Positions 30,420 to 32,335 of a DNA stretch of 36,817 nt are shown here, piece after piece (position 1 is the first letter of the stretch; each line of letters opens with the position of its first letter). Origin of the DNA: Coriobacteriia bacterium (GTDB lineage: Bacteria > Actinomycetota > Coriobacteriia > Coriobacteriales > Atopobiaceae); NCBI GenBank assembly GCA_030530145.1, contig JAUMVN010000023.1, positions 1 through 36,817 on the forward strand, given 5' to 3'. The notes under the pieces are model-generated. The model had not been told where the DNA came from. It saw only the letters and a program-made list of their open reading frames with translations, and searched no databases. Made by a program: the position numbers and the translations under genes.

Positions 30420-31169
30420 TTGGCCGGTCGGCGCACATACCGCTCCCGGGCCATCGTGCTCGACCGGACCAAGCTCGGCGAGACGGACCTGATCTTGACG
30501 CTGCTCGCCGCCGATGGGCGTCAGCTGCGCTGTGTCGCCAAGGGCGCGCGGAAGCCGGGAGGGAAGCTCGCGGGCAAGGTCCAGCTCTTCTGCGAGGTCG
30601 ATTTCCTTCTCGCCAAGGGAAGGAGCCTCGACGTCGTCGCCGAGGCGTCCTTGGTCGACGCGCACCGGGCGCTCCGAGGCGAGCTCGAGCGCGTGAGCGC
30701 GGCCTCGGCGGTCTGCGAGGTCGCGCGCCTCTGCTGTTTCGAGGACGCCGAGGACCCTTTCCTGCCGGCCATTACCTCGCGCGCCCTCGCGGCCTGCGAG
30801 GAGGCGCCCGACCGGTGCCATCTGGACCTCGTCGACGCCGCCTACTGCTTCAAGGTGCTCGCGCACGGAGGTTGGCGCCCCGAGCTCGATGGGTGCTGCG
30901 CCTGCGGGGACCCGGCCGCCGTGCGCTTCTCGCCGCTCGCTGGAGGGGTGCTCTGCGAGAGCTGCTCGCGCGACGTCGCCGGAGCGGAGCCCGTCTCGCC
31001 GAGCCAGGTCGCGTGGCTCCGGGCGTTGCTCGTCTCCACTTTCGACACGCTGCTGGCCGCCGAGCTGGACGAGCAGACGTCCGTGTGGCTGCTCTCGTGC
31101 GCGCACCGATGGGCGGCGACCCATCTCGACGCGCGACTGCGCGCCATGGAGTTCGCGCTCAGCTGCTAG
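30420..31169 (+). CDS. recO: DNA repair protein RecO
   Basis: RecO loads RecA with RecR and anneals strands in RecF-pathway recombination. The 249 residues begin with the OB fold (YRSRAIVLDRTKLGETDLIL and VAKGARKPGGKLAG). The zinc-binding cysteines are around 160 (CCACG) and 179-182 (CESC), followed by the helical C-terminus. The start is TTG 30420 with GGGGAGAGG upstream. The frame is open further 5' but only inside era. The last four bases (CTAG) are shared with the maf stop on the other strand. Confidence 0.93.
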   Translation: MAGRRTYRSRAIVLDRTKLGETDLILTLLAADGRQLRCVAKGARKPGGKLAGKVQLFCEVDFLLAKGRSLDVVAEASLVDAHRALRGELERVSAASAVCEVARLCCFEDAEDPFLPAITSRALAACEEAPDRCHLDLVDAAYCFKVLAHGGWRPELDGCCACGDPAAVRFSPLAGGVLCESCSRDVAGAEPVSPSQVAWLRALLVSTFDTLLAAELDEQTSVWLLSCAHRWAATHLDARLRAMEFALSC

Positions 31170-31807
31170 GCGCGCAGGCTCTCGATAAGACGGGCGAGGC
31201 GACTCACGGGAAGGCCCACCACGCTGAAGTAGTCGCCGCGGATGCCGCGCACGAGCACGCGGCCCCGGCCCTGTATGCCGTAGGCCCCGGCCTTGTCCAT
31301 GGGCTCGCCGCAGGCCACATAGGCGTCTATCTGCGCCTCGTCGAGCGGCCAGAACTCCACGTCGGTCGTCTCGACGAAGGACTCGGCCCGTGCGGCCGTG
31401 CCGCCGGCGCCGATCGCGATGAGGCAACACCCGCTCGAGACGTGGTGCACGCGCCCCGATAGCTCGCCGAGCATGCGCTTGGCGTCCTCGGCGTCCGCGG
31501 GCTTCCCGAGCACATGCCCCGCGTCGTCCCAGACGATTGTGTCCGCCGCGACGAGAAGCCTGTCAGGGTCGTTCAGACCGTCCCCAGCCGCGACGGCGAG
31601 GCTCGCCTCAGCCTTCTGGCGCGCCAGGCGCTCCACGAGCTTCACGGGCGTCTCGCCCTTGAGCGGCGACTCGTCGATGTCCGCCGGCAGTACCGTGAGC
31701 TCATAGCCGAGCTCCTCGAGCAGCTGACGTCTGCGAGGGGACTGGGAGGCTAGGATCATTCGGTGATCGACCTTCCTCTTGGGGGGTTCGTCTCTATTCC
31801 CGACCAT
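31166..31807 (-). CDS. maf: Maf/YceF/YhdE family nucleotide pyrophosphatase
   Basis: This house-cleaning enzyme hydrolyses dTTP, UTP and modified nucleotides. The motifs are LASQSPRRRQLLEELG, the acidic LLVAADTIVWDD, LGKPADAEDAKRML, SGRVHHVSSG, and the C-terminal YVACGEPMDKAGAYGIQGRG. ATG 31807 has a strong GGAGGG eight bases upstream and gives 213 residues. The more usual N-terminus would be ATG 31759 (MILASQSP), preceded by GAGGAAGG eleven bases away. I take the longer form with reservation. It is tail-to-tail with recO, the two stops overlapping in one CTAG. Confidence 0.92.
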   Translation of the reverse strand: MVGNRDEPPKRKVDHRMILASQSPRRRQLLEELGYELTVLPADIDESPLKGETPVKLVERLARQKAEASLAVAAGDGLNDPDRLLVAADTIVWDDAGHVLGKPADAEDAKRMLGELSGRVHHVSSGCCLIAIGAGGTAARAESFVETTDVEFWPLDEAQIDAYVACGEPMDKAGAYGIQGRGRVLVRGIRGDYFSVVGLPVSRLARLIESLRA

Positions 31808-32090
31808 TGTAGGCGCCCTCCGTGCGGCTCGCCTTCGGTGTCGCCGTCAGCATGGTTTTTCGTTGCGCGCCACAAAACCTCGCCGACCGCGACGCAGCGG
31901 GGGCGAGTCGCCACAAATCTTGCCCTCGGCGACTCCAAACCGGCGCGGAGGGTGCTCTTCTGTGGCGAGAAGGGCTATTACGGTCGCCGGGGGCGCGCTT
32001 CTGTGGCGAGAAGGACCGTTACGGCCGCGGGGAACGTACTTTTGTGGCGAGAAGGGCCGGGTTCCCTGCGGATCAATCCGCTGCCCACAC
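31808..32090. other. Gene-free stretch upstream of maf
   Basis: No gene can be supported between maf and the ferredoxin terminator. The frames that are open here give Arg/Gly-rich translations and shift with the 41-base repeats, so they are not coding. The stretch holds the maf ribosome binding site, the repeat array described separately and an 8-bp hairpin (GAGTCGCC 31905-31912 with GGCGACTC 31928-31935). Confidence 0.5.
31868..32079. repeat. 41-bp-period repeat array in two orientations
   Basis: CTTCTGTGGCGAGAAGG starts at 31957 and 31998, and CTTTTGTGGCGAGAAGG at 32039: exact 41-base spacing. The same core inverted (CGCCACAAA) lies at 31868 and 31909, again 41 apart. The first two direct units also share the stretch after the core (TTACGG, then a GC-rich tail), while the third diverges after about 20 bases. 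The period is not a multiple of three, so it is not a protein repeat. Function unknown. Confidence 0.88.
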
Positions 32091-32118
32091 AAAAAAGCCC
32101 CGCTCGCAGGAGCGGGGC
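32091..32118 (-). terminator. Rho-independent terminator of the ferredoxin gene
   Basis: GCCCCGCTC (32097-32105) and GAGCGGGGC (32110-32118) form a perfect 9-bp stem with a four-base loop. On the minus strand it is followed by six T (32091-32096). Confidence 0.95.
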
Positions 32119-32149
32119 CTTGCAGACCTGCTTGAGGTTGGGACTGCTG

Positions 32150-32335
32150 CTACTCGACCTCGATGGCGGAGACGGGGCAGTTGTCGGCGGCCTCCTGAGC
32201 GGCGTCCTCGGCGTCCTCGGGAACCTCCTCGACGGTGGCCTCGGCGACGCCGTCGTCGTTGATGGCGAAGACGTCCGGGCAGGTGCCCTCGCACATACCG
32301 CAGCCGATGCAATCCTCGTTGACCGTAGCCTTCAT
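32150..32335 (-). CDS. Small [4Fe-4S] ferredoxin
   Basis: The 61-residue acidic electron carrier has CIGCGMCEGTCPDVF near the N-terminus (Cys at 9, 12, 15, 19) and a fifth Cys in DNCPVSAIEV near the end. This spacing with one C-terminal CP fits the single-cluster ferredoxins of anaerobes. The start is ATG 32333-32335 with GAGAGAGGA upstream; the frame stays open further 5' without family resemblance. It has its own promoter and terminator, so it is monocistronic. It could serve any of the low-potential enzymes of an anaerobe; nothing nearby identifies a partner. Confidence 0.93.
   Translation of the reverse strand: MKATVNEDCIGCGMCEGTCPDVFAINDDGVAEATVEEVPEDAEDAAQEAADNCPVSAIEVE

Follow-up and report, generated by a model that had tools for sequence, protein, structure and literature searches.

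The array of 41-bp repeats between a maf-family gene and a ferredoxin gene belongs to a dispersed, lineage-specific element that is present about twenty times in the genome of this Coriobacteriia bacterium (2.47 Mb, 57 contigs, completeness 97.5%). Its unit is a 25-bp bipartite sequence, GTCGCC-N10-TTYTGTGGC (box A, GTCGCC; box B, TTYTGTGGC), which together with about 16 variable bp gives the 41-bp period; an array consists of 1–4 reversed copies, an 8-bp centre and then 1–6 forward copies. The explanation that we prefer, and to which we give an even chance, is a dispersed array resembling a terminal-inverted-repeat (TIR) or foldback miniature element (MITE), in which inverted sets of bipartite sites at a 41-bp phase would be bound by a multi-subunit protein. 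The copy in the window (the whole 36,817-nt stretch of DNA that was analyzed) and its surroundings comprise the following features.

31869–32048, no strand: whole phased inverted array, made of two reversed units, the 8-bp centre and three forward units
31869–31893, minus strand: outer reversed unit, GTCGCGGTCGGCGAGGTTTTGTGGC (PWM score 25.2)
31910–31933, minus strand: inner reversed unit, GTCGCCGAGGGCAAGATTTGTGGC, 24 bp long and thus one base short
31934–31941, no strand: 8-bp centre separating the two innermost units
31942–31966, plus strand: first forward unit, GGCGCGGAGGGTGCTCTTCTGTGGC
31983–32007, plus strand: second forward unit, GTCGCCGGGGGCGCGCTTCTGTGGC, near the family consensus (PWM score 36.2)
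32024–32048, plus strand: third forward unit, GCCGCGGGGAACGTACTTTTGTGGC
31780–32090, no strand: approximate extent of the DNA gained in the lineage, from the maf ribosome-binding region to the ferredoxin terminator (gap comparison)
32094–32121, minus strand: intrinsic-terminator-like hairpin 3' of the ferredoxin gene (inverted repeat)
31166–31759, minus strand: neighboring maf-family gene, its start set by comparison with relatives
32150–32335, minus strand: neighboring ferredoxin gene, 96% identical in DNA to the congener over 200 bp

The initial annotation had described three forward and two reversed cores, each set spaced by 41 bp. Their number and spacing hold, with every core starting one base later than given there (31958, 31999 and 32040 for the forward set; 31869 and 31910 instead of 31868 and 31909 for the reversed one), and the core TTnTGTGGCGA is present but under-describes what is conserved, namely the 25-bp unit, with arms facing across the 8-bp centre. 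The array was rightly placed between the ferredoxin terminator and the maf start; several relatives show a comparable GC-rich hairpin at the terminator site, and the closest named relative of maf is from Olsenella profusa (67%), which would put the host in Atopobiaceae. The tandem part of the array is the strongest tandem repeat that TRF reports in the window (period 41, score 134, 31950–32058; the runner-up among 43 rows scores 60), and the sole match of Rfam models to the window is a tRNA at 841–912, the array being without match.

Dispersal, polarity and genomic placement

Allowing up to one mismatch, the 25-bp unit has 52+53 = 105 matches on the two strands of the genome, against 1+1 = 2 for the reversed pattern used as control; with two mismatches the counts are 63+67 against 9+14. 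The shorter sequence TTNTGTGGCGA, at up to one mismatch, gives 74+71 matches against 25+35 with its reversed pattern, and TTNTGTGGCGAGAAGG occurs five times at three places. A PWM census of 26 stretches around matches (305,483 bp) yielded 121 units, compared with 2 in the reversed sequences. The repeats in the window are far beyond chance. Spacing within arms is exactly 41 bp in 66 of 74 cases, the remainder being 42 (three), 40 (two) and 82, 62 and 51 (one each). The initial annotation had proposed a genome-wide copy search, reserving a chance local duplication for the case that neither further copies nor a conserved phase turned up; both are found, so that its repeat-family reading is borne out as a dispersed family with a conserved 41-bp phase, and the idea of a chance duplication confined to one place is refuted by the unit counts and the spacing, with practically nothing left of its probability.

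The units fall into 26 clusters, 21 of them two-armed and the others contig ends or single units. Polarity is reversed-then-forward in all 21 two-armed arrays, and the centre is 8 bp long in 18 of them as counted by PWM. The window array lies outside these 18 because its 24-bp inner reversed unit is overlooked by a 25-bp PWM and its centre is thereby counted as 48 bp; one 7-bp case is genuine. At the start of 66 internal units, a preceding C (64%) or T (26%) is followed by G (100%), T (91%) and C (100%). When arrays are paired by BLAST, the sequence that they have in common almost always stops about 5 bp beyond their outermost box. Unit number varies in steps of 41 bp, as exemplified by the array in L080, which has two identical adjacent units as well as two further units with an identical spacer. 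Most copies are old, as judged from spacers that are at background between arrays and from close relatives that occur as local pairs only.

Neighboring genes were called by a crude, codon-usage-based procedure, to which all of the following counts are subject. Among 19 arrays with both neighbors called, 12 lie between tandem, 5 between convergent and 2 between divergent genes, with a median distance of 63 bp to 24 neighboring 3' ends and of 177 bp to 17 neighboring 5' ends; like REP sequences, the arrays are thus extragenic, behind genes and in tandem or convergent settings. The sole overlap with a called gene, in L080, involves an extension at the N terminus of an ORF that matches uvrC only from about residue 458 onward. 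Such closeness to 3' ends would suit a platform for host functions, on which a chromosomal protein would bind the arrays to organize the nucleoid or block transcription from both sides, with copies spread by recombination and not by transposition. Conservation of boxes and phase despite the age of the copies, and a dyad layout functional in either orientation, also speak for this alternative; insertion where it is least damaging would, however, produce the same 3'-end location, and the absence of the motif from the congener and the other family genomes (see below) is unusual for a core host function. We consider it unlikely and prefer the TIR/foldback-like reading.

Other palindromic repeats, such as AGTTCGGAAGCCTTCCGAACT and CCTCGAGGTGGCGCCACCTCGAGG, adjoin arrays at L079, L084, L085 and L092. 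An exact 55-bp overlap lying inside an array is common to the end of contig C21 and the starts of C29 and C49, where two array copies are 91–96% alike. C49 (L094, 6142 bp) carries LuxR-type and ABC genes and has both its ends inside near-duplicate arrays matching the C21 and C29 ends; it may represent a segment between two near-identical arrays, in an order that is an assembly inference.

Restriction to one lineage

The 41-bp core pair occurs 37 times in the genome and, among 395 others from the class sample, once, at an unrelated-looking site in G394. With no mismatches, the 25-bp unit is found 60 times in the genome and not once in 139 other genomes of the family, the congener (G217) included. 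A strict centre pattern, which matches 13 of the genome's own arrays, has no match in GTDB r220 (84,980 species, from which the genome itself is possibly absent) or in IMG/VR, and a blastn search against plasmids returned no match.

The order of the maf and ferredoxin genes is conserved in the family. They are separated by 391 bp here and by 70–160 bp in all nine relatives, of ten checked, in which both genes were matched: 82 bp in the congener, 77 in G033, 70 in G062, 77 in G015, and 105, 108, 160, 78 and 76 bp in the others. It follows that about 310 bp were gained in the organism's own lineage; because this exceeds the 180-bp array, the event at the window was no clean insertion of the array only, and with respect to a target-site duplication the flanks of the ~310-bp gain are too diverged to define its ends. 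Elsewhere, the two genes of the XDH locus are 313 bp apart in the congener and have no array between them. The array at L079:5770-6221 lies between S10-operon genes and accDA, which are ~8–12 kb apart in the three relatives with both matched, so that it marks a rearrangement junction and not a simple empty site. Empty sites corresponding to arrays on C42 and C17 were not recovered in three relatives, the flanks not being conserved.

Constraint on boxes, spacers and folding

Eight pairs of related units, drawn from two arrays on C17 and from the C21/C29/C49 copies, differ at 7 of 104 conserved columns, 23 of 96 variable core columns and 35 of 96 spacer columns (Fisher p 2e-7, for conserved columns picked from the whole family, tested units included), with the 41-bp phase retained; an earlier version with six pairs gave 5/78, 13/72 and 35/96. 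Such a low rate of change in the boxes relative to the spacers favors protein-binding DNA over an RNA structure. The shared boxes and their spacing look to be kept by selection, and we read boxes and 41-bp phase, but not a transcript hairpin, as what is probably under constraint. A protein-binding array, as envisaged by the initial annotation, is thereby favored as a candidate reading; its corollary, that bound proteins may occupy one face of the DNA, is suggested only by the 41-bp period.

Single units fold no better than shuffled versions of them (mean z −0.45 over 118 units, of which 7% fall below −2). Whole arrays fold strongly (19 arrays, z −3.6 to −16.5), and the window copy has only weak folding on both strands (z −2.4 and −1.2). 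Across the dyad, the two innermost units agree at 8.29 of 12 variable columns, compared with 6.91 expected (p 0.0002), an excess that stems from a minority of arrays, since all 12 columns are identical in 6 of 21. No excess is seen in the second pair (m2/p2; 6.22 vs 6.25 of 12, n=18); there is one in the third (m3/p3; 7.14 vs 5.99, p 0.0024 with n=7) and a weaker one in m3/p1 (p 0.013); opposed spacers have background identity (0.33 vs 0.34). On these grounds of arm covariation and spacer identity, a whole-array RNA hairpin is not supported as the conserved feature.

The same data bear on the possibility that transcribed arrays act as RNA elements, forming long hairpins at mRNA 3' ends that would stabilize or terminate transcripts. 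The strong folding of whole arrays, their location at 3' ends and the excess identity of the inner and third pairs speak for such an element. Against it are the lack of excess complementarity in the second pair, the background level of opposed spacers and the weak folding of the window copy, and it gives the head-to-tail phase no role; we regard it as very improbable.

Transposases, related repeat systems and analogous arrays

The genome has a single RAYT-type Y1_Tnp gene, encoding 271 amino acids (L077:957-2215, contig C52). It is enclosed on both sides by phased inverted units of another kind, with a 35-bp period and GTCCCC/GGGGAC in place of the 41-bp motif; arrays of the 35-bp type also occur without a gene, at L081:2696-2777 and L088:10144-10225. 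RAYTs are present in 8 of 16 family genomes. Twelve RAYT loci were checked, consisting of 11 of 16 matches plus the genome's own and including two from the congener and one each from G033 and G062: the 41-bp motif is found in the flanks of 0/12, as are the other 40/41-bp motifs. RAYT was accordingly rejected as mobilizer of the 41-bp motif, the organism's own one being flanked by other repeats and the 11 further loci lacking the motif. We keep the 35-bp RAYT element as a precedent for the layout.

A search for array–gene–array arrangements with a 30–46 bp phase produced 24 clusters, the nulls yielding 7 and 2; those with more than two supports are the RAYT element and two places where two 41-bp arrays lie close together. 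In the stretches read, no gene is enclosed by the 41-bp motif as element ends, as an autonomous relative would have it. Between two paralogous 41-bp arrays on C17, L083:6563-7666 encodes a 367-aa protein with relatives in the congener, G033 and G062 and a second copy in the genome itself (L098). Common to them is the pattern S-P-x-E ... D ... H ... D..R, which we take to be Vsr/DUF559-like; the 367-aa protein has no family match above cut-off, and its AlphaFold model (pLDDT 71.9) has no PDB match below E 0.4. As the cognate protein of the 41-bp arrays, it is a lead.

The units start with C/T-GTC, which is reminiscent of the CGTC-tagged REPs described by Di Nocera et al. 2013 (PMC3733652); these likewise have no dedicated transposase, are extragenic and come in more than one type per genome. 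The units carry such a tag without a stem: where a REP is a 20–40 bp palindrome with its own stem-loop, the 41-bp unit has no 8–9 bp stem-loop, and head-to-tail order, the rule here, is absent, under-represented or negligible among the REP dimers covered in that source. The same paper places TIR families around some RAYTs; these TIRs and TIRtrons, too, are dispersed downstream of genes, some as dimers or clusters, and their motif GGGGWSAS is matched by GGGGACAC in the 35-bp array at the genome's own RAYT. Unlike them, the 41-bp family encloses no RAYT and has head-to-tail units of fixed phase in two opposed arms. REPINs, described by Bertels and Rainey 2011 (PMC3116915), resemble the arrays in their conserved ends, less conserved spacer, central inverted pair and within-genome family, and differ in having one REP per side as opposed to 1–6 phased units per arm; the 41-bp motif also lacks a RAYT link, and its outer arms mostly show no compensatory changes. 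Finally, the BIMEs of PMC2817692 likewise combine regular spacing with an extragenic position and occurrence in either orientation, but their orientation alternates, whereas the 41-bp arrays switch once, at the centre (21/21).

These comparisons bear on whether the arrays are themselves REPIN-type elements, that is, tandem REP doublets forming single-stranded hairpins that are processed by a RAYT since lost or lying outside the assembly, which at 97.5% completeness and in 57 contigs would leave room for one. The folding of whole arrays, the inner arms identical over all variable columns in 6/21 arrays, the YGTC unit start and the phased 35-bp array around the organism's own RAYT can be cited in its favor. 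Weighed against them are units that are non-palindromic and head-to-tail within arms, and the 0/12 RAYT loci with the motif nearby, even though the congener, G033 and G062 carry analogous arrays; we see only a small chance that this explanation is correct. The REP/BIME-like reading in the initial annotation thus captured location and dispersal and missed the structure of the unit, which is non-palindromic, head-to-tail in the arm and beside none of the RAYTs examined. We file the family as of the REP/TIR/MITE kind but as a member of neither REP nor REPIN. In the parts of the literature at hand, opposed arms built of phased units in head-to-tail order are not what is usual, and a literature search, mostly without subscription papers, returned no description of the 41-bp motif or of such repeats in Olsenella or Coriobacteria.

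The TIR/foldback-MITE-like explanation would account for the layout as follows. A bipartite DNA site, box A and box B 10 bp apart, would be repeated every 41 bp and most likely occupied at this phase by a multi-subunit DNA-binding protein; the two arms, facing each other across the 8-bp dyad, would correspond to the termini of a mobile element. Its terminal inverted repeats would be composed of tandem sub-sites and would enclose next to nothing, if anything at all. Mobility would lie in the past and depend on an enzyme acting in trans. The arrays consist of inverted arms of tandem sub-repeats, as expected of foldback or TIR-only MITEs. Foldback (FB) elements are eukaryotic and have long, internally repetitive terminal inverted repeats. 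The foldback-type transposon Galileo (PMC3573991) has such repeats with a variable number of units, and the layout seems mechanistically to resemble these ends; unlike the arrays, for which no transposase was found and whose centre is only 8 bp long, Galileo is eukaryotic and has a known transposase. Dispersal, fixed polarity and phase, the gain at the window locus, the shared ends of the arrays, the constraint on boxes but not on spacers and the lack of folding in single units are observed and speak for this explanation, whereas protein binding, past mobility and an enzyme in trans are inferred from them. Against it are the absence of an enclosed transposase gene and of the motif at the 12 RAYT loci, the want of a demonstrable target-site duplication, a gain larger than the array at the window, the age of most copies, the rearrangement junction at the S10/accDA locus and the choice of the conserved columns from the tested family itself. 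The explanation also draws on the precedent of the 35-bp phased array, which encloses a RAYT and also occurs without a gene, and on analogous arrays with other motifs in four relatives.

These analogous arrays were detected without a preset motif, by searching for phased repeats that occur in both orientations; arms that were only reversed or only complemented served as nulls. In 600 kb of the congener there are three arrays of CACACGAAG...TTCTG units, all measuring 40-115-40 bp; G062 has six in 300 kb, with 40–42 bp phases and about four motif types; G033 has a 31-bp phased inverted array of ~13 GACAAGGGCGGCRATTCCTRGA units, the longest seen (C49 of that genome, about 78,940–79,350, L315-L316); and G221 also has a 31-bp array. 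The organism's own genome contains further 41-bp phased inverted arrays at L081:7080-7220 (motif GCCATCAGGCCGAATTGCGCAA) and L084:2374-2590 (motif CGTCGCACGAGCGGC). No cluster was found in G126 and G228 (100 kb each), few and mostly single-support ones in G200, G242, G086, G130 and G192 (the strongest, in G130, with 6 supports and a period of 30/60), one with two supports in G178, and a single one-support cluster in total in 40 kb each from four genomes that belong to two further families. A few strong clusters came up in the reversed-only null as well, where the periods are short and in-frame-like (30 and 36, for example). Common ancestry of the analogous arrays with the 41-bp family is a tentative reading by eye.

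Taken further, the arrays could belong to a system of the whole Atopobiaceae in which the layout (~40-bp phase, opposed arms and dyad centre) is kept and the recognized sequence switches between and within genomes, a proposal that is tentative and that we consider somewhat doubtful; it builds on the identical 40-115-40 bp geometry of the congener's three arrays and on the 40–42 bp phases that G062 shows for about four motifs. The usual interpretation of intergenic repeats in bacteria is that of hairpins. In the 41-bp family, conservation concerns two boxes and a helical phase and leaves the spacers free, a combination suggestive of a protein lattice on double-stranded DNA. If the arrays of sister species are the same system, they would provide a natural experiment on how a binding or transposition protein changes its target while keeping its geometry, and the cognate protein would become a concrete target for pulldown. 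A family-wide system, if true, would mean that there is a class of DNA-binding or transposition proteins, as yet undescribed, that combines fast-evolving specificity with fixed oligomeric spacing.
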